Origin: Micromonospora sp. CB01531
GTDB taxonomy: Bacteria > Actinomycetota > Actinomycetes > Mycobacteriales > Micromonosporaceae
Length of the DNA: 64,000 nucleotides
Reading direction: 5' to 3'
Assembly (NCBI RefSeq): GCF_001905095.1
Contig: NZ_LWLS01000066.1
Coordinates: 1 to 64,000, forward strand
Part shown: piece by piece, positions 39,154 through 53,418 of the stretch
Position numbering within the stretch: position 1 is the first letter of the stretch
Layout of the letters: each line of letters opens with the position of its first letter
Notes under the pieces: generated by a model
Told to the model about the DNA's origin: nothing
What the model saw: the letters and a program-made list of their open reading frames with translations, nothing else
The model's database searches: none
Position numbers and translations under genes: made by a program

Positions 39154-39186
39154 AGGCCGGTGTCGGATCACGTCCGACACCGGCCT
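39154..39186 (-). terminator. Strong hairpin terminator after the transporter operon
   Basis: A perfect 14-base stem (AGGCCGGTGTCGGA, 39154-39167, with its complement at 39173-39186) closes a five-base loop. It lies 32 bases after the stop of the ATPase-permease gene on the minus strand. This is the clearest terminator in the window and marks the edge of the catabolic island. Confidence 0.8.
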
Positions 39187-39217: not shown

Positions 39218-41728
39218 TTATTCAGGGTTCGAAACGACGGCCTTCGAGGCTGCCCGACGCTGCGCCTGAGCGAACACGCCGGTGGCGGCCAGGGCCATCA
39301 GACCAGGTAGCCAGTACTGCCAGGCCTGCGAGAGCTCGGCGAAGACGGCAGTCGTTTGGGTGACCTGGAGCAGCACCACGCCGAGCAGTGCGCCGAAGAA
39401 GCTGCCGCGACCGCCGAAGACTGAGGCACCTCCCAGGACGATGGCAGTGATGCTGGCCAGCGTGTAGGACGTGCCGGCGGTGGGGTCGCCGACGCCGATC
39501 TGTGCCATCAGCAAGAACGCCCCAAGCAGCGTGCACAGCGCGGACGCGATGTACGCCGAGAGGTACACCGCTCCCACGGGCACACCGCGGCGGTGCGCTG
39601 CCTCGTGGTCGGAGCCGGTGCCGCGCAGGCGCAGCCCGGCGAGTGTGCGTCGGGAGGCACGCTCAAGCAGGAGCAGCATCGCGACGCCGGCCAGGATCAC
39701 CCAGGGGACCGGACCGATCTTCGCGGTCAGGAACGACATGATCGGAGCTGCGATGGTGCCGCCTGGGGTGTCGCGCATGAGCAGCGACAACCCCTGCAGG
39801 CCGGTGTAGGTGACCAGGGTCGCCACGACCGGCGTGACTGCGGCGAACCTGACCAGGGCGCCGTTGAGTAACCCGACTGCCAAGGCGAGCGCGACCATCA
39901 ATGCGATGCCGATGAGCCACCATGTCAGGCCCACACCGTCACGTAGGTAGAAGGAGGCGACGACGACGAGGGCGCCGCAGAGCGGTCCGACCGAGAGGTC
40001 GATTCCGCCGGTCAGCATCACGAACAGCTGTCCTGCTGCCAGGAAGATCAGCGGTGCGATCAGGCCCAGCATGCTGGAGATGTTAAAGCTCGACAGGAAC
40101 CGGTCGCTTTGGCCGATGCCGACCAGTGTGAGCGCTGCGATGGCCAGCAACAGGAATGCGCTGGGGCCCTGCTCGCTGGTCAGCAGCCTGGTCAGCCGGC
40201 CGACGCGCCGCTTGTCGGAGCGTGGTGCGGAGGCATCGCGGTTGGACCCGGCTTCGGTCAGTGAGGCAGCGGTGATGGCGTGGTCGGTGACCTCGTCCCC
40301 GACGAGCTCGGCGACCACCGTTCCCCGGGAGAACACCAGCACGCGGTCGCAGAGGCCGGCGAGCTCCACGTTGTCGGAGCTCAGCACGACCACTGGCACG
40401 CCGGCATTGGCGTGGCCGCGAAGGCGGTGGTAGATGTCCGAGCGGACGCCGACGTCGATGCCCTGGGTGGGCTCGTCGCAGAGCAGCACCGTGGGCTCGG
40501 AGAGGAGGGCACGCCCGAGCACGACCTTCTGCTGGTTGCCGCCTGACAGGGTCTTCACGGCGGTGTCTGCCGACGGGGTCTTGATGCCCATCTCGGCGAT
40601 TGTCCGGCGCACCAGTTCGTGCTCCTGCGACAGCCGGATCACGCCCTTGTTGGCGGATTGTGCAGTTGCGGCGATCGATAGGTTCTCCCCCACCGAGTGG
40701 ATCGGTGCCAGGCCTTCGACGTGCCGTTCCTGGGGCATCAGCACGATTCCGGAGGCACGTGCCGCCCGTGGGGTGCGAAGATCAGCGGGTTTGCCGTCCA
40801 CCTGTACGTGTCCGCTGCCGGCGATGGCGCCGCCGAGGGCACGGATGAACTCCCGCTGGCCGTTGCCTTCGACGCCTGCCAGGCCGAGGATCTCGTTGCG
40901 CCGGACGTCGACGTCGACGCCCTTCAGTCCGGGGGCACGCAGGCCGCGCACGTGCAACACCGGCTCTCCCAGCGCCTGCGCGCGGTCCGGGAACATCGCG
41001 TCGACCTCTCGTCCCGCGACGCGCGTGATGATCTCCTGCTCGGTGACCTCCGCGGCGTTGTAGGTGCCCCGGATCTGCCCGTCTCGCAGGACGGTGATGC
41101 GGTCGGCCAGGGCGAGCACGTCTGGCAGCCGGTGGCTGATGTAGACGATGCCGACGCCGGTGGCTGCCAGTCTCCGTATCTGGGTGAAGAGCTGTTCGGT
41201 CTCTGCTGCCATGAATGGTTCGGTCGGCTCGTCGAAGATCACTACCTGTGGGTCGCAGGCGAGTGCGCCGCAGATCTCCACCGCCTGCTTTTCGGCGAGG
41301 GTGAGGGTCTCCACCCGCGCCTCGGGGCGGATGGGCATGCCCATTGGTTCCAACCGTTTGCGTGCCCATTCGGTCGCCTTTGAGAACGGTGGCCGCTTCC
41401 GGGTCGGCACGGAGAGCATCAGGTTCTCGGTGACGGTGAGGTCGGGCAGCAGCGCGGGATGCTGGAACGCGATGGACAGCCCGAGTTCCCGCGCGGCTAC
41501 CGGCGATACCTCGGTGATCTTTTGGCCGTCGATCTGGATCGAGCCGCTGTCGGGCACGAGGGCGCCGGATGCCACGCTCATGAGCGTCGACTTGCCGGCT
41601 CCGTTGCCTCCCACGAGCGCGTGGATCTCACCGGGCCGGACATCGAAGTCGACGGAGTTCAGTGCCAGTACGCCGGGAAAGCGTTTGGTGACACCTTTCA
41701 TCACCAGCAACGGCGTGCGCTCCACCAT
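39218..41728 (-). CDS. Ribose-type ABC importer: tandem ATPase fused to permease
   Basis: An 836-residue fusion. Residues about 5-245 are ATPase domain 1 with Walker A VGGNGAGKSTLM and Walker B VVIFDEPTEPF; its signature is unusual (LTLAEKQAVEI). Residues about 250-500 are domain 2, which as in RbsA has a degenerate Walker A (AGVEGNGQREFI) but a good signature TLSGGNQQKVVLG and Walker B VLLCDEPTQGIDV. Residues about 515-825 are an RbsC-type permease with 8-10 helices (QLFVMLTGGIDLSVGPLCGA). In most systems these are separate proteins. The start lies 67 bases after the binding-protein gene, across a hairpin. It should power sugar-type import. Confidence 0.93.
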   Translation of the reverse strand: MVERTPLLVMKGVTKRFPGVLALNSVDFDVRPGEIHALVGGNGAGKSTLMSVASGALVPDSGSIQIDGQKITEVSPVAARELGLSIAFQHPALLPDLTVTENLMLSVPTRKRPPFSKATEWARKRLEPMGMPIRPEARVETLTLAEKQAVEICGALACDPQVVIFDEPTEPFMAAETEQLFTQIRRLAATGVGIVYISHRLPDVLALADRITVLRDGQIRGTYNAAEVTEQEIITRVAGREVDAMFPDRAQALGEPVLHVRGLRAPGLKGVDVDVRRNEILGLAGVEGNGQREFIRALGGAIAGSGHVQVDGKPADLRTPRAARASGIVLMPQERHVEGLAPIHSVGENLSIAATAQSANKGVIRLSQEHELVRRTIAEMGIKTPSADTAVKTLSGGNQQKVVLGRALLSEPTVLLCDEPTQGIDVGVRSDIYHRLRGHANAGVPVVVLSSDNVELAGLCDRVLVFSRGTVVAELVGDEVTDHAITAASLTEAGSNRDASAPRSDKRRVGRLTRLLTSEQGPSAFLLLAIAALTLVGIGQSDRFLSSFNISSMLGLIAPLIFLAAGQLFVMLTGGIDLSVGPLCGALVVVASFYLRDGVGLTWWLIGIALMVALALAVGLLNGALVRFAAVTPVVATLVTYTGLQGLSLLMRDTPGGTIAAPIMSFLTAKIGPVPWVILAGVAMLLLLERASRRTLAGLRLRGTGSDHEAAHRRGVPVGAVYLSAYIASALCTLLGAFLLMAQIGVGDPTAGTSYTLASITAIVLGGASVFGGRGSFFGALLGVVLLQVTQTTAVFAELSQAWQYWLPGLMALAATGVFAQAQRRAASKAVVSNPE

Positions 41729-41750
41729 GTGGGTCCGTCCTTTCCTCCGT

Positions 41751-41784
41751 GCCGGCCGCGAGCGGTGTTGCTGTCGCGGCCGGC
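41751..41784 (-). promoter_or_regulatory. Intergenic hairpin between binding protein and ATPase genes
   Basis: GCCGGCCGCGA (41751-41761) and TCGCGGCCGGC (41774-41784) form a perfect 11-base stem with a 12-base loop. In ABC operons such a hairpin after the binding-protein gene usually stabilises its transcript or partly terminates it, giving more binding protein than ATPase. No U tract follows. Confidence 0.55.
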
Positions 41785-41795
41785 AGGAGACCTGA

Positions 41796-42950
41796 TCAGT
41801 TGTAGATGCGCTTGAACTGTTCGTCGGTGAGGTCAGCGCTGAGGATCGCGCTGCTGGGCAGGCCCGGTTCGCAGCGCGGCTGCTTGCTGGCGTCGAAGGT
41901 GTCCTCGTGGATGGGGATGTTGACGATCTCCGGCTCGTCGTTCTTGATTCCCTGCTTGGCGGCGATCGCCTTGCGCAACGCCAGCCGCACCAGCCATGTC
42001 CTGCTCGACACGGTCACGGTGTTGAAGCTCTGGTGTTGCTTGTGCAGGCGGTGCCACTCACAGGCGAACCCGTTGAGGTCGTTGGCCGTCCACAGCGGTA
42101 GCTTGCGGCCGGCGGAGAGGAAGGCACGGATACCACCGAGGGAGCCGTCACCCGAGTCGGAGATCACCGCGTCGATCTGCGGGTACTTCGTGAGAAGGCC
42201 GGAGACGACCCGCTGGGTCTGGGCTGGGTTCCAGTCGGTGTCGATGGGCTTTCCGGGCTGGTTGAGAAGCTTGACGTTGGCGCACGCCTTGTTGGATTCG
42301 AGTTCTTCCTGGATGCCCTTCATCTCGGTGGTGCTCTGTGTGTTGCCTGGAGTGCCGCCGAGGAAGATGACGTTCCCGCCTGCGTCACCTAGGTGCTGGC
42401 AGGTCCAGCGAGCCCAGGTACGGCCGTCGTTGACCGTGTTGTGGCCGACGAAGGTGGTGTAGTCCTTGCCCGGGGTGCCGCCCGGGTTGGCCGTCCATGG
42501 CACCATCGCCACGCCGGCCTGGTATGCCTCGCGAAGCGTGGGCAGAAGGGCCTCGCCCGCATCGGGGAACACGACGATCGCGTCGGCGCCCTGTGAGACG
42601 ATTGCCTTGATGTCACTGATCGCCTTCTGCGGGTTGTTCTGCGCGTCGGAGTACGGCATGACGGTCAGGTTGGGACATTTGCTCGCTTCGTCCTCGAACT
42701 CTGCGCGCGCGGTCTTGCGCCAGGCGTTGTCTCCGGTGCCGTCTGCCAGAGCGACTTTGAGCGGCTTGTCGCCGCAGAACTCGTCGATCGACTTGAGGTC
42801 GCTCACCTCACCGACACGTGCCTTGTCGGCGTAGACGTCGGCGGCTTTGCTGCCGCCTCCGGAGTCGTCCGCTGGGGCTGCGCAGGCCGAGGCGGTGAGC
42901 AGTGTCGCCATCGCGAACGTCGCCGCGGCGAGGACACGGTTGGTTGCCAT
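41796..42950 (-). CDS. Substrate-binding lipoprotein of sugar-type ABC importer
   Basis: A 384-residue periplasmic-binding-protein family 1/4 (RbsB-like) protein. The signal peptide (VLAAATFAMATLLTASACAAP) ends in a lipobox-like SAC, so the mature protein is probably lipid-anchored at the Cys. The ribose-binding fold is shown by KVALADGTGDNAWRKTARAE then ISDIKAIVSQGADAIVVFPD, and IDAVISDSGDGSLGGIRAF. ATG 42950 is the start. Domain lengths are larger than RbsB, suggesting a ligand bulkier than ribose. It lies between the permease and the ATPase-permease gene. Confidence 0.9.
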   Translation of the reverse strand: MATNRVLAAATFAMATLLTASACAAPADDSGGGSKAADVYADKARVGEVSDLKSIDEFCGDKPLKVALADGTGDNAWRKTARAEFEDEASKCPNLTVMPYSDAQNNPQKAISDIKAIVSQGADAIVVFPDAGEALLPTLREAYQAGVAMVPWTANPGGTPGKDYTTFVGHNTVNDGRTWARWTCQHLGDAGGNVIFLGGTPGNTQSTTEMKGIQEELESNKACANVKLLNQPGKPIDTDWNPAQTQRVVSGLLTKYPQIDAVISDSGDGSLGGIRAFLSAGRKLPLWTANDLNGFACEWHRLHKQHQSFNTVTVSSRTWLVRLALRKAIAAKQGIKNDEPEIVNIPIHEDTFDASKQPRCEPGLPSSAILSADLTDEQFKRIYN

Positions 42951-43004
42951 GCCGGTCTCCAATCTGAGGAATGCGTGGAACGTCGAGTGATCGGGGAAGC
43001 TTCG

Positions 43005-44018
43005 TCAGCGTCGGTGTGGGCGCTTGCGCAGTCCGAGGAGAGCGGTCACGGGAATCCGGTGCAGCGAGACCGCCAGCGCCAAGACAACGGCCTGCACCAG
43101 CAGTTGCATTGAGGTCGGAGCCCCTGCTGCCAGGACGACCTGGTTGAGCTGAGTGAGGAACAACGCCGCGACGGCCGTGGCGAGTGCGTTGCTGATGCCG
43201 CCGGCGAGAAGGCTCCCTCCGAGGACCACCGCCGCGATGGACGACAGCTGGTAGGAGTTGCCGAGCAGGATGTCGGGGGTTCGCAGGTATCCGGCCAGCA
43301 GCATGCCGGCGAGCGAGTAGAGGACGCCGGCGGCGGCGTAGGCGCCCACTTGGTACAGGCGGGTGCGGATGCCCACGAGGCGGGCGGCATCGACGCTGGC
43401 TCCGACAGCCATGAATCTGCGTCCCACCACGGTGCGGCGACGCATCCACTGCACCAGGAGCGTCAACGCGAGGGCGACGAGGAGCAGGTTCGGGATGCCG
43501 AGCACCGAACCTACGGAGAAGCTGCTGAAGTCGGGGTTGGCTGATCCGGGGAAGCCCTTTGAGACGGCGAAAACGACACCGATGAGGATGGAGTTCATCG
43601 CCAGGGTTGCGACGAAGGCGGCGATGCGGACGTGCACGACGACAAACCCGATGAGCACTCCGGCGCCGGCCCCGACGAGCAGGCCAAGCAGCGCGGCAAC
43701 AGGCAGCGACACACCCAGCATCTCGGGAACCTTGGTGACGAACACAGCAGCCAGGGCCACGGCACCCGGCACGGAGAGGTCGATGCCGCCGTGCGCGATC
43801 ACGAGCGACTGCCCCAGCGCGGCGATCATCAGGATCGCCGCGAAGGGCAGCATCGAGGCCAGCGCGGATCCGGAGAGGCTCCCGGGGGCGAGCAGAGGGC
43901 TGATCACGAACAGCGCCGCGGCCATGATCCAGACCGTCGTGAACGGGTTGGGGCGCAACATGGGACGCCGGGACGACAGCTTGCCCGTCCGGTCCGGTTG
44001 CTGCACGTCGATCGTCAT
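43005..44018 (-). CDS. RbsC-type ABC importer permease
   Basis: A 337-residue membrane protein with about ten helices. The conserved QSLVIAHGGIDLSVPGAVAL is the RbsC/BPD_transp_2 signature, and the ATPase-contact loop follows VGRRFMAVGASVDAARLVGI. The second permease of the importer is fused to the ATPase, so the transporter has a heterodimeric membrane part. It lies 37 bases after the SDR gene and 54 bases before the binding protein, in one minus-strand operon. Confidence 0.92.
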   Translation of the reverse strand: MTIDVQQPDRTGKLSSRRPMLRPNPFTTVWIMAAALFVISPLLAPGSLSGSALASMLPFAAILMIAALGQSLVIAHGGIDLSVPGAVALAAVFVTKVPEMLGVSLPVAALLGLLVGAGAGVLIGFVVVHVRIAAFVATLAMNSILIGVVFAVSKGFPGSANPDFSSFSVGSVLGIPNLLLVALALTLLVQWMRRRTVVGRRFMAVGASVDAARLVGIRTRLYQVGAYAAAGVLYSLAGMLLAGYLRTPDILLGNSYQLSSIAAVVLGGSLLAGGISNALATAVAALFLTQLNQVVLAAGAPTSMQLLVQAVVLALAVSLHRIPVTALLGLRKRPHRR

Positions 44019-44055
44019 CGAATTGGTCCTTTCACTGCTCCGGGCAACAGGCGGC

Positions 44056-44808
44056 TCAGACAGCGGTGTAGCCGCCGTCGACGGGCAGGTCGGCTCCGGT
44101 GATGAAGGCCGCCTCAGGTCCGAGGAGAAACGCGATCACGCCGGAGATCTCGGCCGGCTCGGCGATTCGCCGCAGTGGATGCGCCGCGATCAGCTGATCT
44201 TCGGCCGCAGCGGGATCGGACTGGCTAGCCAGGTAGCCCCTCAGCTGGGCCGTCTCGACCGATCCAGGGCTGACGACGTTGCACCGGATGCCGTGCTGGG
44301 CGTAGTCCACGGCGATCTGCCGGCTCAGCTGGACGACCGCACCCTTGGACGCGCAGTACGCCGGCTGTTTGGGTAGCCCGACGTGCCCGGAGATCGATGA
44401 CGTGTTGACTATCGCGCCGCCGCTGTCCTGCTCCAGGAACGCGCGGACTGCGTGCTTGCACGTCAGGAATGTGCCGGTCGCGTTCACCGCCATGACCTGC
44501 GACCACTCCTGCAGGGTGGTCTCGGTCAGGGCGCGGGAACTCATCGTCGCGGCGCAGTTGACGAGCCCCGACAGAGTGCCCCAGCGCTGGCGGGCCTCCG
44601 CCACGAACCCCGCAACGGCGGCTTCGTCGGTCACGTCTGCCGGCCTTGCGAGGACATCGAGCCCGCGTCCGGCCAGTTCGTCGGCGGTGCGGCGGACGCC
44701 GTCACCGTTGCGGTCTACCAGCAGCACGCCGCTGCCGCGCTCGGCCAACAGCCGGGCGGTGTCGGCGCCGATGCCACCGCCGGCTCCAGTCACGATCACG
44801 CCGGTCAT
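44056..44808 (-). CDS. SDR family NAD(P)-dependent dehydrogenase
   Basis: A 250-residue classical short-chain dehydrogenase. The cofactor loop is GVIVTGAGGGIGADTARLLA; an Asp at the end of strand 2 (VLLVDRNGDG) favours NAD. The catalytic residues are Ser in IVNTSSISGHVGLP and Tyr-Lys in QPAYCASKGAVVQL. The C-terminal GADLPVDGGYTAV is standard. ATG 44808 gives the family length. It is the first gene after the 26-base palindrome and heads the transporter operon. Expected role: oxidation of a secondary alcohol of the imported compound. Confidence 0.92.
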   Translation of the reverse strand: MTGVIVTGAGGGIGADTARLLAERGSGVLLVDRNGDGVRRTADELAGRGLDVLARPADVTDEAAVAGFVAEARQRWGTLSGLVNCAATMSSRALTETTLQEWSQVMAVNATGTFLTCKHAVRAFLEQDSGGAIVNTSSISGHVGLPKQPAYCASKGAVVQLSRQIAVDYAQHGIRCNVVSPGSVETAQLRGYLASQSDPAAAEDQLIAAHPLRRIAEPAEISGVIAFLLGPEAAFITGADLPVDGGYTAV

Positions 44809-44838
44809 GCGGCTTGCTCCTTGAACATGCGGGGAAGA

Positions 44839-44864
44839 TTGACATGCTGCATGCAGCATGTCAA
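44839..44864. promoter_or_regulatory. Perfect 26-bp palindrome, probable GntR operator
   Basis: The 26 bases are a perfect palindrome: the left half TTGACATGCTGCA is mirrored in the right half. It sits between the divergent SDR-transporter and amidase-cyclase-dehydratase operons. Each end supplies a TTGACA, a consensus -35 hexamer, in each direction, so a repressor here would close both promoters at once. The FadR-type regulator at 48550 is the only regulator in the island and is the likely ligand-controlled binder. I found no second copy in the island. Confidence 0.78.
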
Positions 44865-44912
44865 TACTCATGCAAGTCGCCTTCAGTTCCGTCCCCGAAC
44901 GAGGAGCCCCAG

Positions 44913-45767
44913 GTGGAGACCAAGACCAACTCGCTGGTCAGCGTGGCCGTGGCGCAGGTGCCGTCGGCCCCGGGTGCTCTCGACCGCAACGTGAGCATCA
45001 CGGCAGCCCACATCCGCGATGCGGGCCACCGGGGGCACGACCTTGTCGTCTTCCCCGAGTGCACGCTCAGCGGCTACATGTTTGACAGCCCGGAACAGAC
45101 GCGCGCGGCCGCCCTCACCACCGCGGATCACCGTCTGGCCGCCTTGGTGGAAGCCTGCGGCAACGCGGACGTGCTCGCCGTGGTGGGCCTGCTGGAGCTG
45201 CAGGGACCGGACGTCTACAACTCGGCCCTCCTGATCAGCGGAGACGGGATCCTCGGCCGCTACCGGAAGGAGCACCTGCCGTTCTTCGGAGCCGACCGGT
45301 TCGTGTCGCCCGGCGACGACCGCGCCCCCCGGGTGATCGACACGCCGATCGGTCGCATCGGCCTGATGATCTGCTTCGACCTGCGCTTTCCGGAGTCAGC
45401 AAGGGTCCCGGCGTTGCAGGGGGCCGACGTCATCGCCATGCCAACCGCCTGGCCGGCTTCCGCCACACTTCTCGCCGAGCACTTCACACGTGTTCGAGCG
45501 GTCGAGAACCTCGTTTACCTGGCGGTGGCCGACCGCGGTGACGAGGAGAACGGCACGACGTACCTCGGCGGCAGCCAGGTGGTCGCTCCGACCGGAGAGG
45601 TGCTCGTCCGCGCGGACCAACGCGAGGGCATCTTCGGCACCGACGTGGACCTCGAGGTGGCACGCACCAAGCGGCTCGTCTTCATTCCCGGTGAGTACGA
45701 ACTCGCGGTGTTCGACCAACGCAAGCCGCAGCAGTACGGCGTCCTCACCCAGACCCCCGAGAACTAG
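44913..45767 (+). CDS. Nitrilase-superfamily carbon-nitrogen hydrolase
   Basis: A 284-residue enzyme with the full catalytic triad: Glu49 (VVFPECTLSGY), Lys119 (RYRKEHLPFF) and Cys154 (LMICFDLRFPE). The GTG at 44913 follows GAGGAG by six bases. The family hydrolyses amides, nitriles or carbamoyl groups; with FDLRFPE after the cysteine it looks like an aliphatic amidase or N-carbamoyl hydrolase. It begins the plus-strand operon with the cyclase and dehydratase, so it probably removes ammonia or carbamate from the substrate. Confidence 0.9.
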   Translation: METKTNSLVSVAVAQVPSAPGALDRNVSITAAHIRDAGHRGHDLVVFPECTLSGYMFDSPEQTRAAALTTADHRLAALVEACGNADVLAVVGLLELQGPDVYNSALLISGDGILGRYRKEHLPFFGADRFVSPGDDRAPRVIDTPIGRIGLMICFDLRFPESARVPALQGADVIAMPTAWPASATLLAEHFTRVRAVENLVYLAVADRGDEENGTTYLGGSQVVAPTGEVLVRADQREGIFGTDVDLEVARTKRLVFIPGEYELAVFDQRKPQQYGVLTQTPEN

Positions 45768-45787
45768 GCCGGAAGAGAGGCACCGAC

Positions 45788-46762
45788 ATGTGCGGACCGG
45801 AGATCATCACCGACGAGGTGCGCAGGAAGATCGCTGCGTACGCGGCGAAGTTCCGTGAGGTGACGAAGAGCCCCTTCGGGCCCGACGACGAGATCGGCAT
45901 GCTCAACCTGTTGTCGCCGCAAGCCGCCCGCAAGGCGGTGCAGCGTGCCGACGGGGGCGCCGCGATCGACCTGTCGGTCGACATGTTCATGGGCATGCCT
46001 TCCTGGATCAAGGCGGGCGACCCGGCATTCCAGCAGTGGATGACGCACACACCGCCGGGCACGGTGCTCGACGACCTCACCGGGGCAGGCCCAGACCAGA
46101 ACGAGCTGGTGGCGTACTCGGGCGACGCCGTTTCGATGTACACCCACACCGGCACACACATCGACACCCTCAACCACTTCGGATACCGCGGGAAGATCTG
46201 GAACAGCTTCTCCGCCGACCAGCACCTGAGCTCACGCCACTGGATCAAGTGCGGAGCAGACAAGATCCCGCCGATCATCGGCCGTGGCGTACTGTTCGAC
46301 GTCGCCGCGCTGCACGGCGTGGACATGCTTCCGGACAACTACGGCATTAGTGCCCAGGACCTGCAGGACACCCTGCGCCGCCAGCAGCTGGAGTTCCACC
46401 CCGGCGACATCGCCCTGATCCGGACGGGCCGGATGACGCAGTGGCCCGACCCCTCGCGGTACATCGACAACAGCCCCGGCCTCAATCTCGATGGTGCGCG
46501 TTGGCTGGCGCGGGCCGGTGCGTCGGTCATCGGCGGTGACAACTCCGCGCTCGAGCAGATGCCGGCCGACGACGACGAGAACTGGCAGGTCGTGCACACC
46601 TACCTGCTCGGCGAAGCGGGTGTCCCGATGATGGAACTCGTCGACTGCGAGCAACTGTCCGCCGAGAACCTTTACGAGTTCGCCTTCGTGGGTGCCTGCC
46701 TGAAGATCCGCGGCGCGACCGGGGCCCCGATGCGGCCCCTCGCCATGCCCTTCACCTCCTGA
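45788..46762 (+). CDS. Cyclase family protein (kynurenine-formamidase-like hydrolase)
   Basis: A 324-residue metal-dependent hydrolase of the PF04199 cyclase family. The metal motif is YTHTGTHIDTLNHFGYRG (HxGTHxD...H), followed by IIGRGVLFDVAALHGVD and GDIALIRTGRMTQWPD. Members hydrolyse formamides, lactones, cyclic amides or isatin. It starts 20 bases after the amidase gene, in one operon. Its length, longer than the about 210 residues of bacterial kynurenine formamidase, matches the polyketide-cyclase-like/isatin-hydrolase-like branch. Confidence 0.88.
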   Translation: MCGPEIITDEVRRKIAAYAAKFREVTKSPFGPDDEIGMLNLLSPQAARKAVQRADGGAAIDLSVDMFMGMPSWIKAGDPAFQQWMTHTPPGTVLDDLTGAGPDQNELVAYSGDAVSMYTHTGTHIDTLNHFGYRGKIWNSFSADQHLSSRHWIKCGADKIPPIIGRGVLFDVAALHGVDMLPDNYGISAQDLQDTLRRQQLEFHPGDIALIRTGRMTQWPDPSRYIDNSPGLNLDGARWLARAGASVIGGDNSALEQMPADDDENWQVVHTYLLGEAGVPMMELVDCEQLSAENLYEFAFVGACLKIRGATGAPMRPLAMPFTS

Positions 46763-46803
46763 CGCCCCGACGGCGCCCTAGTACACGAGAAACGAGGCAC
46801 CAC

Positions 46804-48498
46804 ATGCCCCCCAAGTCCGCTGGCTCGGCCGTCGACTCCAGCCGCACCGCCTACGGCGACGAGGAGTTCAGCCGTTTCCTGCGACGCGGCTTCCTGGCGT
46901 CCAGTGGCTACGACGACGTCGACCTGGAGCGGCCGGTCATCGGCATCGCGGTCACCACGTCCAGCTACAACACCTGCCACCGTGACATGCCAGCATTGGT
47001 GGAGGCGGTGAAACGCGGCGTCCTGGAGGCCGGCGGGCTGCCGATGACGTTCCCGACCATCTCCCTCGGGGAGATCCTCACCTCCCCCACCTCGATGCTC
47101 TACCGCAATCTGATGGCGATGGACACCGAGGAGATGATCCGCGCGCTGCCCATGGATGCCGCCATCCTGCTCGGCGGCTGCGACAAGACCGTTCCGGCGC
47201 AACTCATGGCGGCGGCCTCGTCGGACAAACCGGTGCTTCTCGAGGTCGTAGGGCCGATGATGACCGGCAGCTGGCGGGGCGAGCGGATGGGTGCCTGCAC
47301 CGACTGCCGACGGCTCTGGGCAAGCCACCGCGCCGGCGAGCTGGACACCGACGAGATCACCGAGGCGCGCGGCGAACTGGTCACCACCGCAGGCACGTGC
47401 GCGGTGATGGGCACCGCTTCCACCATGGCGTGCATGACGGAGGCTCTCGGCATGATGCTGCCCGGCGGCGCCACCCCGGGCGCCTCCACAGGTGAACGGC
47501 TGCGCCACGGTGTGGCGACCGGACGCCGCGCGGTCGCCCTAGCCGAGCAGGGCGGCCCGCTCCCCCGCGATGTCCTCACGCGCGCAGCCTTCGACAACGC
47601 CATTCGGGTGCTCGCGGCACTGGGCGGATCCACCAACGCGCTGGTGCACCTCGTCGCCGTCGCTCGCCGCGCGGGCGTGGACCTCAAGCTCGCGGACTTC
47701 GACACCGTGGGCGCCAAGGTGCCGCTGCTGGTCGACTGCAAGCCCTCGGGACAGAACTACATGCAGGACTTCCACCACTCCGGCGGCCTGCCCGCACTGC
47801 TCAAGGTCCTCGAGCCCGAACTCGACACGACCACCATCGGAGTGACCGGCCGCGCCCTTCACGAGCTACTAGGAGACGTTCCCGCCAGGCAACAGTGGCA
47901 GAGCACGATCCGCTCACTCGAGGACCCGCTCGGGCCCCCCGGCGCGCTTGCGGTCCTGCGCGGTTCGCTGGCCCCCAACGGTGCGGTGCTCAAGACCTCG
48001 GCCGCCAGTCCGCACCTCCTGCAACACACCGGGCCGGCGTTCGTGCTGGACGCGGACCAGGACATCGCCTCGGTGCTGGACGACCCGGATCTCGACATCA
48101 CACCCGAGCATGTGCTGGTGCTCCGTTCCGCCGGTCCGAAGGCAGCGGGGATGCCGGAGGCCGGCGCGCTTCCGATCCCCCGGAAGCTGGCCCGTCAAGG
48201 GGTGCGCGACATGGTGCGGGTCTCGGACGCCCGGATGAGCGGAACGTCGTACGGCACGGTCGTACTCCACTGCGACCCGGAAGCAGCAGCCGGCGGGCCC
48301 CTCGCGGTCGTCCGCAACGGTGACCTGATCCGCCTCGACGTCGCCGCACGTCGTCTGGACCTCCTCGTCGACGACGATGAGGTACAGCGCAGGCTGCGCG
48401 ACTACGTGCCTCCGGCAGCACCGCAGCGTGGTTGGGGGCGCCTATACGCCGAGACCGTTCTGCCGGCAAGTCAGGGCGCTGACTTGTCCTTTCTTTGA
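46804..48498 (+). CDS. IlvD/Edd family dehydratase (Fe-S sugar-acid dehydratase-like)
   Basis: A 564-residue dehydratase. Three Cys likely to bind the Fe-S cluster are at 58 (SSYNTCHRDMP), 126 (LLGGCDKTVPAQ) and 199 (TAGTCAVMGTASTM), matching the IlvD pattern. Other family motifs are LGGSTNALVHL and RVSDARMSGTSYGTVVLH at the C terminus. Length and RMGACTDCRR insertion resemble the pentonate/arabinonate dehydratase branch more than biosynthetic IlvD. It sits in the catabolic operon 41 bases after the cyclase gene, so dehydration of a polyhydroxy acid is expected. Confidence 0.92.
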   Translation: MPPKSAGSAVDSSRTAYGDEEFSRFLRRGFLASSGYDDVDLERPVIGIAVTTSSYNTCHRDMPALVEAVKRGVLEAGGLPMTFPTISLGEILTSPTSMLYRNLMAMDTEEMIRALPMDAAILLGGCDKTVPAQLMAAASSDKPVLLEVVGPMMTGSWRGERMGACTDCRRLWASHRAGELDTDEITEARGELVTTAGTCAVMGTASTMACMTEALGMMLPGGATPGASTGERLRHGVATGRRAVALAEQGGPLPRDVLTRAAFDNAIRVLAALGGSTNALVHLVAVARRAGVDLKLADFDTVGAKVPLLVDCKPSGQNYMQDFHHSGGLPALLKVLEPELDTTTIGVTGRALHELLGDVPARQQWQSTIRSLEDPLGPPGALAVLRGSLAPNGAVLKTSAASPHLLQHTGPAFVLDADQDIASVLDDPDLDITPEHVLVLRSAGPKAAGMPEAGALPIPRKLARQGVRDMVRVSDARMSGTSYGTVVLHCDPEAAAGGPLAVVRNGDLIRLDVAARRLDLLVDDDEVQRRLRDYVPPAAPQRGWGRLYAETVLPASQGADLSFL

Positions 48499-48549
48499 TA
48501 GAGGCACTATGAAGAACAATCGGACCGGGCAACAGAGAAGGATCGTGTC

Positions 48550-49254
48550 GTGAAGCCACTGGTGATCGATCAGGCATCCCTGACGGAGCGCGTGTTCGAG
48601 CAAATCCGTGACGCGATCCTCGCCGGCGAGCTGGCACCAGGGACGCTGTACTCGGTCGTAGAGCTGTCCAACCAGCTCGGGGTCTCACGTACCCCGGTGC
48701 GCGAGGCCCTTCTCCAGCTGGCCAGCAACGGGATGGTTCGATTCGAGCGCAGCAAGGGCGTGCGGATTCTCGAGCTCTCCACGCAGGACATCGAGGAGAT
48801 CTACATGTTGCGGATCTTCCTCGAGGCACCGGCCGCGTACCGCGCTGCCCAGCACATGCCTCAGGAGCACCGGGAGGCGTTCCAATCGGCGTTCGCCGGA
48901 ATGCGCGCGGCATGCGAGGCCGGCAACGAGCGGCAGTTCCAGAAGCACGACCTGACCTTCCACGAGGCGATCCTGCGGGCTGCGGGGAACTCGCGGGTGG
49001 TCGAGGCCGTCGCGAAGGTCCGGTCGCAGATGCACTCCCTGGGTCTGTCCACCACCAGGACGCGCACGCTGTCGGACATCCTGTCAGTCCACGAGCGCAT
49101 CTACGACGAGGTTCTTGCGGGCAACCCAGCGGGAGCGGCGAAGGCGGTTCAGGAGCACCTGGTCGGCACACTACGCATGCTCATCCGGCAGTCGACACGT
49201 GACACCACCGCGGAGGAGTACCAGCCGCCCGTGATCCCCACCTTCCCTGACTGA
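48550..49254 (+). CDS. FadR/FCD-type GntR family regulator
   Basis: A 234-residue regulator. The GntR winged helix is TERVFEQIRDAILAGELAPG then SVVELSNQLGVSRTPVREAL. The C-terminal FCD ligand domain is all helical, with metal-ligand candidates in FHEAILRAAGN and SVHERIYDEVLAGN. FCD regulators sense organic acids, often with a bound metal. It ends the plus-strand operon and very likely binds the palindrome at 44839, relieving repression when a pathway intermediate accumulates. Confidence 0.92.
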   Translation: MKPLVIDQASLTERVFEQIRDAILAGELAPGTLYSVVELSNQLGVSRTPVREALLQLASNGMVRFERSKGVRILELSTQDIEEIYMLRIFLEAPAAYRAAQHMPQEHREAFQSAFAGMRAACEAGNERQFQKHDLTFHEAILRAAGNSRVVEAVAKVRSQMHSLGLSTTRTRTLSDILSVHERIYDEVLAGNPAGAAKAVQEHLVGTLRMLIRQSTRDTTAEEYQPPVIPTFPD

Positions 49255-49319: not shown

Positions 49320-49610
49320 TGAGCTGGCCGGGCACTTCGGCGCCCTGCGGGTGCGTCCCGCCGGCCGGACCATCCAGCGCGGATCCAGTGCGGTGAGGAC
49401 GCTGTCCTGCCAGAATGCTGGCTGCTCCTGCAGTCCCGACCAGGACGAGCCCAGCGATTACTGGCTGTGCGGCCCGCCTGCCGACACATCCGTTGAGTGA
49501 ACTGGTCCGCCTGGCCAAGAGCCGCTGGCGGTCGAGCACGACTACCCCGAACTCAGGACCGCCCTCGGGCTCGACCACTTCGAAGGCCGCTCCTGGATCG
49601 GCTGGCGCTC
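49320..49610 (+). mobile_element. IS701-family transposase 3' remnant, multiply frameshifted
   Basis: Pieces in different frames spell an IS701-type C-terminal region: GHFGALRVRPAGRTIQRG, then DYWLCGPPADTS, then LSELVRLAKSRWR, then EHDYPELRTALGLDHFEGRS followed by W. At least two frameshifts separate them (near 49490 and 49530). The catalytic N-terminal two thirds are absent. It marks the right edge of the catabolic island, opposite the IS630 fragment at 39057. Confidence 0.72.
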
Positions 49611-50064: not shown

Positions 50065-53000
50065 GTGACGATGCCGGGGGGTAACGTGGGAGAGCCTTAC
50101 CAGCAAGGGGAGATCGTCGAGTCGGCCCAAGCTGCCGCCACTGATTCGGTGGTGCTGGGCGCAGTCCCGTCGCCACGGCCGGCACCGGAGCCGGCATCAA
50201 CGGTCACCCCGGCGGACGCGCCCCACCCCGTGACGGCGGAGGCCTCTGGGGGTGGGGACGGCGGCTCGCGGCGGCAGGAACGCGCGAAGCCGCGGACGGG
50301 CCGCGTGCGACACGGTGCGCTCAACCGTCTGATCATGGTTCGTACGTCAGCCTGGCGCATCCCGGAGATCGAACTGCTGCGGCGGGACCCGGACCGCTCC
50401 CCGGACAGTCTCGCTACCGAACCAGGCGGTGTGGAATTCGCCGCGCATCGTCGCCTACTCGACGCTCTCCTCCGGACGGACGGGGTGCCGGACGGGGCGG
50501 CCTGGCTGGGGCGGGTCCGCGATGGAGACGATGCCGTCGACTACAAACGTGCCGACAGTGAAGCGGGCCGGTCACTGATGACCGAGCTGGTGGACGAGGT
50601 GCGGCAGGGGTGTTTGGCCGCATTGGACAAAGACCGGCAGGCCTGGGGTCAGCTGGCCGAGCTGCGGCATCAAATATTCCTGGAGCCGCGGCGGCTGCAG
50701 TCGCTGCGCGATCCGGCGGATCCGGACCGGCCCCTGTATGCGGTCGTCGACATCTCCTTTTCCTACCTCGTGAAGCGGCCGCTGTGCCGAGCCAGCGTCT
50801 CGGTTTGGACGTCGCTGCCCCGTAGCCGTCGGCATGTCCCTGAGGAGCTGCTGGCGGTGAACGGCGCGCAGGACGTGCAGATCCCCGCTGAGCAGCTACC
50901 CGCCTACCGCGCCTATTTGCTGCGGGTCGGTGAGAGCCTGCAGCGGTTGCTTGCCGCACAACTCCTGCCGGTCCAGTTCCGGATCTTCGATTGGCAGTAC
51001 GACTTACCGACGTTCTGGGTGGCCGTCCCGGCGTCTCTGCGCAGCGACGCCTACCGCTATCTGGAGCAGAGCGACCGGGTCGGTGATCGGCTCGCGCGCG
51101 AGCTGCTACTGACCGGCACCGCTCGGGACTCCGTGGTGAGCCGCGCCGTGATCAACGGCGACTTCATGGTGCTGCGCCGGTTTCGGCGGGAGGACGAGAC
51201 CTACACTCCGCACTACCTGATCCTGCCATCGCGCAACGGCTACCCGGCCCGTGACGCCGAAGGCCAGCGGGACTCGGACCGGCAGGCGGCCGCGATCCGC
51301 CGCCAGGAGGAGAACGCCGCGGGGATCGTCACCGCCCTCAGTGAACTCGAGGCGAAAAGCGGCAGCGAGCTGTACACGGTGGAGCGTGACCTGGAAATTT
51401 GGAAAAACCATCTTCAGGTCTACACCGCGATGGCTGAACGCGGCGCGTTTCTGTGGGACGCGCTCTCGACCCACCTGCCGATGCGGCGCGGTCGAACGCT
51501 CAACGAAGCGCACCGCGCGGTGCAGTTGCTGCACCAGATCCTGCTCCAAGGGGTAGCCGACCTCGGCCATCTGCGCGCACTGACGCGGGCCTCCAGTGCC
51601 GACATCGACGCGGCGGCCGAGCAGTTGCAGGACGACTTCGACGCGAAACTCACCGAGTTGCACGGGCGAAGTGTGCGCGGACTGCGCGGAGCGATCACCG
51701 AGACCGGACTGTTCGCCCGGGTACGCCAGCACGGCGCGGAAATCGTCGAGCAGTCCTCCTGGGTCAAGTCTCGGTACGACGACCTCGTGGCCGCGATCAC
51801 CTCCGCGTTCGACGAGCGGCGGGTCCGCGAGGCGGACGTGATCCAGAAGGGCGGCGTGGTGATCAGCCTCGCGGTGGGACTGGTCAGCCTGGTGACAGTC
51901 CTGGACGCGACGACGGACATGAAAACCCCCAAGGACATCGCGCCGACCCCCGGCGCGCCGGCGGATGGCAACTGGCTGCGCTGGCTGCATGACCAGGCAC
52001 TGGGGTTGCTGTCCCGGCACGCCGACGAGGCGGCGCTGTTCAGCCTTGCCTGCGGAGTCGCCGTCCTGGGCGTAGCGGTGTATGTCTGGGTCAGGTTCAG
52101 GTCCTCGGGTCGGCTGAGCTCTCGGCAGTTTCGCCGGCTCTATGACGGGTCACGCCGCCGGCTCGTCCTGCGCGACGGCCACGGGGTGTGGCACTTCCTA
52201 AGGGACGCCTCGACCGACAGCCTCGAGGATTTCCTCGGCAGCACGCGGCGCCCGCCAGCCAAACCCGAGGAAAACCGACCGCCCGGAACACCCGCGTCCA
52301 GGGCACCTCGGGCGGACGCCCCGAAGAACCGGCAGCGTTGGGCCGAGCACGATGACGCCCTGGCCGGGCGCTTCGCCGACCTGTGGGATCGGGCGGCTCC
52401 GATGAAGGTGCGGCGGCAGGACCGGGTCCGTTCCGACATCAAGGCACTGGCCCGACGAATCGAACACTGGGGCATTCACGGCCTGCTACTCACCGAGCGT
52501 CCTCGCCAACTACATGAGTACGTGCTGCCCCGACTCATCTGCCTCTACCGGTTCTGCATCCCGTGGCCGGACTCGTTCATCGAAAAGGTGGGCCGACAGA
52601 ACCGCCCGAAGAGCCTCGTGCCGGACAGCGAGTTCGTGCGGGCGATGCAGTGGCTCGGCTTTCAGCGCGACCAGGCAATGGAGTTCGACAGGCACCTACA
52701 CAGCTGGCAGAAGCGCCAGATCAACGAGACCCAGGACGCCGCCGAATCCGCCGGAAAATCCGTACCCGCTCAGTACGCTCGGCGACTTCTCGATCTTCTG
52801 AATGAGTTGGAACTCTCCGCGTACTGCACGGCGGAAAACGTCGAACGGCTGCTGGTCCATTCGGAAGCAGCGGCCGCCGAGAATCGACCCGCGCCGCCGG
52901 AGGCGCCTCCGCGGGTATGGACCCAGGTCGTAGTGCAGCCCGGCGACCTGAATCCGAACGGCGAACCGACCCACCAGGCGCTCGAGCGCTACTGCGTACT

Positions 53001-53418
53001 GGCTTTCGCCGAGTGGCTCCAGGCCGAAGGGGTGCGGGTCGAGCCGCTCGCCAGCGGAAGGGTGACCATAACGGGCAAGGACGGTGCCACCGTCGAGCCG
53101 GTGGTGCTGGATCCACGCGCCAGCCGATCACTCCGACTCACCGCAGGCGACACCATCGAGGTGAGCTGCGCCGTACACCAGACCGAACTTCGCGGATTCC
53201 CCACTCGCCACCTGCTGCGACCCGCCCCCGCGACGCTGAGCCAAACGAACGACGACGCGCACGATTCGGCCACCGTGCTGCAAGGCAGCGCTCCGAATGA
53301 CATGAAGGGCGAGGGCGGCGAGTCCGACGAACCGGTGACTGTCGACGGCATCGCGCTCCTGCGCGACACTGCCACCGGCCGCTTCACGCGCGAGCCGGCG
53401 CTCTGGCTACGCCGATGA
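50065..53418 (+). CDS. Large two-helix membrane protein of unknown function (1117 aa)
   Basis: Starts at GTG 50065 or ATG 50071. Order of parts: a Pro/Ala-rich disordered leader (1-85), a mixed alpha-beta region (about 90-400) with SFSYLVKRPLCRASVSVW and FRIFDWQYDLPTFWVAVP, a helical region likely to form coiled coils (about 410-595; LNEAHRAVQLLHQILLQGVA), two transmembrane helices (about 597-617, VVISLAVGLVSLVTVLDATT, and about 655-675, LFSLACGVAVLGVAVYVWVR), a cytoplasmic helical domain (about 760-935), and a C-terminal beta-rich tail. No nuclease, ATPase or protease motif is visible. Codon use is uniform, so this is one gene. No related gene is adjacent. Confidence 0.72.
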   Translation: MTMPGGNVGEPYQQGEIVESAQAAATDSVVLGAVPSPRPAPEPASTVTPADAPHPVTAEASGGGDGGSRRQERAKPRTGRVRHGALNRLIMVRTSAWRIPEIELLRRDPDRSPDSLATEPGGVEFAAHRRLLDALLRTDGVPDGAAWLGRVRDGDDAVDYKRADSEAGRSLMTELVDEVRQGCLAALDKDRQAWGQLAELRHQIFLEPRRLQSLRDPADPDRPLYAVVDISFSYLVKRPLCRASVSVWTSLPRSRRHVPEELLAVNGAQDVQIPAEQLPAYRAYLLRVGESLQRLLAAQLLPVQFRIFDWQYDLPTFWVAVPASLRSDAYRYLEQSDRVGDRLARELLLTGTARDSVVSRAVINGDFMVLRRFRREDETYTPHYLILPSRNGYPARDAEGQRDSDRQAAAIRRQEENAAGIVTALSELEAKSGSELYTVERDLEIWKNHLQVYTAMAERGAFLWDALSTHLPMRRGRTLNEAHRAVQLLHQILLQGVADLGHLRALTRASSADIDAAAEQLQDDFDAKLTELHGRSVRGLRGAITETGLFARVRQHGAEIVEQSSWVKSRYDDLVAAITSAFDERRVREADVIQKGGVVISLAVGLVSLVTVLDATTDMKTPKDIAPTPGAPADGNWLRWLHDQALGLLSRHADEAALFSLACGVAVLGVAVYVWVRFRSSGRLSSRQFRRLYDGSRRRLVLRDGHGVWHFLRDASTDSLEDFLGSTRRPPAKPEENRPPGTPASRAPRADAPKNRQRWAEHDDALAGRFADLWDRAAPMKVRRQDRVRSDIKALARRIEHWGIHGLLLTERPRQLHEYVLPRLICLYRFCIPWPDSFIEKVGRQNRPKSLVPDSEFVRAMQWLGFQRDQAMEFDRHLHSWQKRQINETQDAAESAGKSVPAQYARRLLDLLNELELSAYCTAENVERLLVHSEAAAAENRPAPPEAPPRVWTQVVVQPGDLNPNGEPTHQALERYCVLAFAEWLQAEGVRVEPLASGRVTITGKDGATVEPVVLDPRASRSLRLTAGDTIEVSCAVHQTELRGFPTRHLLRPAPATLSQTNDDAHDSATVLQGSAPNDMKGEGGESDEPVTVDGIALLRDTATGRFTREPALWLRR

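Follow-up and report, generated by a model that had tools for sequence, protein, structure and literature searches.

The eight genes between positions 39,218 and 49,254 of the window (the whole 64,000-nucleotide stretch of Micromonospora sp. CB01531 analysed here) were tentatively read, with slightly less than even confidence, as a mobile catabolic module, inducible by its substrate, for the breakdown of a small hydroxylated compound whose nitrogen ring would be opened hydrolytically. The evidence supported one regulated and self-contained catabolic unit with a dedicated importer, horizontally shared in soil actinobacteria. Its hydrolase F was assigned by sequence and modelled fold to the PKC/HpoH-type ring-opening subfamily and is predicted to be metal-dependent. 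The initial annotation had named no characterised pathway with this gene set, and the open-access literature, which omits most subscription journals, yielded no paper that describes it. However, single steps have known precedents, as opening of a ring at a C-N bond with subsequent amidase action occurs in the nicotine, 2-hydroxypyridine and fungal nicotinate lower pathways. What is new is the combination of an IlvD step with a short-chain dehydrogenase/reductase (SDR) and a sugar-type importer.

The genes had intact reading frames and filled the interval as two divergent operons, D-C-B-A leftward and E-F-G-H rightward. The single operator initially proposed between them was confirmed as a perfect palindrome:

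39218..41728, minus strand: A, fused ATP-binding cassette (ABC) ATPase (two ATPase domains, RbsA/AraG-like) and RbsC-type permease, 836 aa, from domain search
41796..42962, minus strand: B, sugar-type (CUT2) substrate-binding protein; alternative ATG start at 42950
43005..44018, minus strand: C, RbsC-type permease
44056..44808, minus strand: D, classical SDR oxidoreductase, 250 aa
44838-44865, between D and E: operator, perfect 28-bp palindrome ATTGACATGCTGCATGCAGCATGTCAAT
44913..45767, plus strand: E, nitrilase-superfamily (CN_hydrolase) amidase; triad Glu49-Lys119-Cys154
45788..46762, plus strand: F, PF04199 hydrolase of the PKC/HpoH subfamily; metal motif HTGTHIDTLNH (H120, H124, D126, H130)
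46804..48498, plus strand: G, IlvD/EDD sugar-acid-type Fe-S dehydratase; Cys58, Cys126, Cys199, Lys128, Ser479
48550..49254, plus strand: H, GntR/FCD-family regulator, probable repressor acting via the palindrome

All eight genes gave Pfam matches far above the cut-off, namely two ABC_tran and BPD_transp_2 (A), Peripla_BP_4 (B), BPD_transp_2 (C), adh_short (D), CN_hydrolase (E), PF04199 (F), ILVD_EDD_N/C (G) and GntR with FCD (H). Every gene initially annotated was present within the limits given for it, but the gene called RbsA proved to join an ATPase and a permease in one protein, and the cluster encodes two permease domains. A plain known pathway was ruled out because no cluster gene reached an NCBIfam equivalog cut-off, G passing only a broad subfamily model. 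The GC content of the cluster (65-70%) was slightly lower than that of the left flank and equal to that of the right flank.

Conservation of gene order and operator

Carriers were surveyed by family searches and by an F-based scan of one genome per species, which was pattern-based and not exhaustive. The full order, A-B-C-D divergent from E-F-G-H, was also present in Saccharopolyspora spinosa (L017), Amycolatopsis sp. GM8 (L018), Nocardia jinanensis (L020), Mycobacterium sp. NS-7484 (L054) and two congeners (L068 and L069), with flanks that varied between carriers. Nocardioides soli (L016) carried E-F-G-H and a more distant A-B-C lineage without D. The conservation elsewhere in actinobacteria that had been suggested as a check was thus borne out and, as it extended to seven further genomes, of which one lacked the SDR, the gene order was not due to chance. 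Among 395 genomes of the class, an F homologue with more than 60% identity was found in the cluster's own genome only. G homologues at E<=1e-200 were present in 4 of 301 family genomes, one of them in a different context.

No palindrome of the operator type was expected from shuffled sequences (0). The operator overlapped the only sigma70-like promoter in 38.7-50.1 kb (-35 TTGACA at 44839, for the E-F-G-H operon), one such site being expected by chance. Its 26-bp core was unchanged (26/26) in the window, Nocardioides (L016), Nocardia (L020), Mycobacterium (L054) and congener L068, and matched at 25/26 positions in congener L069. The core was letter-identical in four families, whereas the remaining spacer diverged. 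The site occurred once in the cluster's own 9.24-Mb genome and in 0 of 394 other genomes of the class; Saccharopolyspora and the congeners carried a tandem pair. Because H and the operator were co-conserved, H probably binds the palindrome.

The putative ring-opening hydrolase and its amidase partner

F was a full-length PF04199 protein within the subfamily length of about 310-325 aa and carried the HxGTHxD...H metal motif. It shared 50.5% identity over 95% of its length with the cyclase of Arthrobacter nicotine plasmids but 29% or less with other PF04199 branches, and its close relatives formed one supported group in the tree, apart from the PF04199 outgroups. On the nicotine plasmids the F homologue was flanked by a molybdenum (Mo)-hydroxylase large subunit with a small open reading frame (ORF) and by a flavin adenine dinucleotide (FAD) monooxygenase, and a nitrilase-type hydrolase lay close by; this neighbourhood matches kdhL-ORF106-pkc-dhph-nit of pAO1. 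PKC is induced by nicotine, and its proposed reaction is the hydrolysis of 2,3,6-trihydroxypyridine to 2-ketoglutaramate, ahead of 2-ketoglutaramate amidase (PMC6214936). HpoH and HpoI of Rhodococcus rhodochrous PY11, which uses 2-hydroxypyridine, are reported to perform the equivalent of the PKC step and the amidase step (PMC6214936). The structure model of F (mean predicted local distance difference test score 79.7, weak segment at 77-100) agreed in fold with PDB 5ibz (PF04199, no known function), isatin hydrolase and kynurenine formamidase, the latter two being C-N hydrolases.

Amide hydrolases were the usual neighbours of F relatives, being found in most clusters. An E-like gene lay near F in 18 related loci. 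Such genes occurred in types I, II and III, the latter two described below, and in Methylocapsa, while the neighbours of F in rhizobia, Aminobacter and Variovorax included amidase-signature genes. The nearest solved relatives of E were archaeal small-molecule amidase/nitrilase enzymes, which would fit a ring-free degradation of aldaramides or aldonamides, in which an open-chain amide would first be attacked by E, a lactone formed later would be the substrate of F, and G, itself of sugar-acid type, would dehydrate the sugar acid. As this route leaves the recurrent SDR-E-F core and the PKC relationship unexplained, it was judged improbable.

Overall, the cluster resembled the PKC/NIT pair of pAO1 and the HpoH/HpoI pair of PY11 in combining a PF04199 hydrolase of the same subfamily with a CN-hydrolase amidase, for C-N ring opening and then ammonia release. 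It differed in adding an SDR, an IlvD dehydratase, a CUT2 importer and a GntR operator, and in having no Mo-hydroxylase or FAD monooxygenase. The cluster could also be the tail of a hydroxypyridine pathway, with F opening a trihydroxypyridine-like aromatic ring to 2-oxoglutaramate or a relative. This would account for the shared PKC subfamily and the adjacent amidase E, and F homologues do adjoin Mo-hydroxylases in loci L063, L071 and L072. However, a hydroxypyridine pathway proper does not fit because ring hydroxylases are missing from the cluster, neither G nor D is needed to reach 2-oxoglutaramate, and the importer is of sugar type; this origin was considered improbable.

Dehydratase, importer, sister clusters and the proposed pathway

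In G, residues C58, C126, C199, K128 and S479 were invariant and aligned with the [2Fe-2S] cysteines, lysine and catalytic serine of 9evv. G was homologous over its full length to IlvD/EDD L-arabinonate and sugar-acid dehydratases (PDB 5j83, 9evv, 8ej0), with which it shared the Fe-S cysteines and catalytic serine. It differed from the L-arabinonate dehydratases in gene context and in scoring 648 bits against their equivalog NF009559, below the cut-off of 882. In addition, the extra conserved cysteines C165 and C168, present in G and in its type I-III relatives, were not found in the aligned L-arabinonate dehydratase. The importer A-B-C resembled the CUT2 sugar ABC importers (Rbs/Ara/Ytf) in domain composition and binding protein family but differed in the fusion of ATPase and permease. 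The fused importer type was also observed in loci L076 and L077, with genes for maleylacetate reductase, a dioxygenase and a Gfo/Idh dehydrogenase. As it accompanies aromatic catabolism clusters there, the CUT2-like fused architecture is not limited to sugars.

The main rival explanation, an oxidative sugar pathway of Weimberg/Dahms-like type, would use D as a sugar 1-dehydrogenase, F as a lactonase and G as an aldonate dehydratase, while E would remove the amide or nitrile of a modified sugar or catalyse a side reaction. The relationship of G to L-arabinonate and related sugar-acid dehydratases and the CUT2 sugar type of the binding protein and permeases speak for it, as do a 62% G homologue located with an aldehyde dehydrogenase-like gene and two loci (L021 and L022) where F and G adjoin a DHDPS-family aldolase and an SDR, L021 also holding a LarA-type isomerase. 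On the other hand, F falls within the PKC/HpoH subfamily, in a family for which no sugar lactonase was found; most F clusters include an amide hydrolase; Microbacterium retains SDR, E and F without G; and the fused transporter is shared with aromatic-compound clusters. Furthermore, no aldolase, 2-keto-3-deoxy sugar acid (KDx) dehydratase or semialdehyde/aldehyde dehydrogenase was found within the cluster. The sugar pathway was therefore considered unlikely, though with the highest standing among the rivals.

Sister clusters around F were of two further types. Type II (L023, L025, L027 and L029; about 1.3-13 kb of each) held a CUT2 transporter, E and F, followed by an SDR and/or a D-2-hydroxyglutarate-dehydrogenase-like protein. 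Three of the four, all except L029, also had an L-2-hydroxyglutarate oxidase. These enzymes fit the acid expected from 2-hydroxyglutaramate, and by analogy the type II product would be oxidised as a 2-hydroxy acid instead of dehydrated. Type II could also represent, in bacteria, the fungal hydroxyglutaramate route, which is said to be undetected in prokaryotes. The operator was searched for in the type II clusters and not found. Type III (L021 and L022) comprised F, G, the DHDPS-family aldolase and an SDR, with operator-related sites at 4-6 mismatches in both loci. L021:43-16643, a large related regulon with the same operator type, additionally carried E, a second F copy, an enolase-superfamily enzyme and the LarA-type isomerase, a member of nickel-pincer isomerase group 22, for which no described function was found.

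Other neighbourhoods were more varied. Shinella carried E, an L-2-hydroxyglutarate oxidase and F. In Aminobacter sp. MSH1 (L058:37-13258, pUSP2) the same fused transporter type was found with an isopropylmalate/tartrate-dehydrogenase-like enzyme, F, an SDR and an amidase; pUSP2 is a conjugative plasmid, and L058 also encodes succinate semialdehyde dehydrogenase and an iron alcohol dehydrogenase. Rhizobium johnstonii pRL12 (L059:964-10969) and about ten other rhizobial loci held two SDRs, an ABC importer, a GTP-binding protein, an amidase, an F homologue and a protein of PuuE/cyclic-imidase type that matches PDB 3qbu very closely; they are likely to encode a cyclic imide pathway. A PuuE/cyclic-imidase-type gene accompanied the F homologue in Variovorax as well. 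In Microbacterium sp. BR1, F was nested in the type I group within an SDR-E-F set without G. The theme common to these gene neighbourhoods is an SDR together with hydrolases of C-N rings or amides, whose substrates would be small hydroxylated acids.

For the nitrogen-ring module we infer the substrate, product and order of steps as follows. H would repress both operons by way of the palindrome they share and release them once the compound or an intermediate is present, and A-B-C, whose transporter class is clear from their domains, would import the compound. D may oxidise a ring hydroxyl to a carbonyl, making an imide or lactam carbonyl, at the carbon next to nitrogen if the fungal analogue is followed. 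F would then cleave the ring C-N bond of the hydroxylated cyclic imide or lactam to a half-amide, as its subfamily and fold suggest, and E, from its family, would convert the half-amide to ammonia and a hydroxylated carboxylic acid. Finally, G, judged likewise, would dehydrate a 2,3-dihydroxy acid to a 2-oxo acid. As no aldolase or aldehyde dehydrogenase follows G, the final product might be a central 2-oxo acid, e.g. 2-oxoglutarate or oxaloacetate. The initial proposal of ring opening or deamidation, dehydration and oxidation thus agreed with the comparative genomics, but a cyclic imide or lactam is likelier than a plain sugar-acid amide because F falls in the PKC/HpoH ring-opening subfamily.

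The fungal analogue is the lower nicotinate pathway of Aspergillus nidulans, in which the SDR HxnW, the imidase HxnM and the amidase HxnN lead to 2-hydroxyglutarate (PMC9304392). The likeness lies in the order of reaction types, namely oxidation by an SDR that yields a cyclic imide, ring opening to a 2-hydroxy half-amide and amidase action (PMC9304392). However, the imidase HxnM is of PuuE/deacetylase type and the amidase HxnN is FAAH-like (PMC9304392). Neither hydrolase is homologous to F or E, and the fungal pathway has no IlvD enzyme. F was ruled out as an HxnM homologue since HxnM is PuuE-like, and no match to PF01522 (PuuE-type cyclic imidase) was found in the cluster. A specific version, which we regard as unlikely, starts from a dihydroxylated cyclic imide such as 3,4-dihydroxyglutarimide or tartrimide. 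F would open the ring, E would give 2,3-dihydroxyglutarate or tartrate, and one IlvD-family step would yield 2-oxoglutarate or oxaloacetate, an undescribed bacterial route. The open-access literature gave no lead on dihydroxyglutarate, PF04199 imidases or isonicotinate clusters, and the residues that set G and F of type I apart allowed no pocket argument to be derived.

Several observations weigh against the nitrogen-ring module. No Mo-hydroxylase or FAD monooxygenase of the pyridine routes was found among the cluster genes or immediate flanks. E shared 27% identity with the nicotine-pathway omega-amidase NIT and fell on a separate branch, so it is not an orthologue. F need not open an imide everywhere, because the rhizobial clusters hold both F and a separate PuuE/cyclic-imidase-type protein. 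The type III neighbours (DHDPS aldolase, LarA-type isomerase and enolase-superfamily enzyme) point to longer, sugar-acid-like intermediates. Finally, the product of G and its fate are guesswork.

Edges, history and implications of the module

The features at the edges of the island were as follows:

39154..39186, downstream of A: perfect 14-bp inverted repeat, which probably terminates the leftward operon
49480..49606, plus strand, right edge: decayed remnant of an IS701-family transposase, about 80% DNA identity to IS701-family transposases

The strong terminator initially described at the island edge corresponds to this perfect hairpin, 3' of the leftward operon. Of the insertion sequence remnants initially described, the right one was real and the left one was weakly supported. 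To the right of the island, a 1117-aa ORF (window 50065-53418) had no Pfam match.

E, F, G and H were 70, 87, 86 and 78% identical to their counterparts in Nocardioides soli and 58, 84, 83 and 71% identical to those of congener L068, and the F and E trees grouped them with Nocardioides soli rather than the congeners with full support. The transporter genes showed the reverse, with 51, 55 and 48% identity to Nocardioides soli against 71, 77 and 70% to the congener. These opposite affinities point to a mosaic joined near the operator and moved between families. Transfer between lineages, in line with the earlier suggestion, was thereby supported.

If the proposed pathway is correct, PKC/HpoH-type ring opening would extend from aromatic hydroxypyridines to saturated, sugar-like nitrogen rings, and an IlvD enzyme would have a new role at the end of a nitrogen-heterocycle pathway. 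By the dihydroxylated-imide route, a nitrogen ring would enter the citric acid cycle directly. The regulator, operator and importer would form a set whose inducer could be found by simple binding assays. In addition, the 2-hydroxyglutarate oxidases of the sister clusters lead to the prediction that bacteria have a counterpart of the hydroxyglutaramate route, so far reported in a fungus alone.

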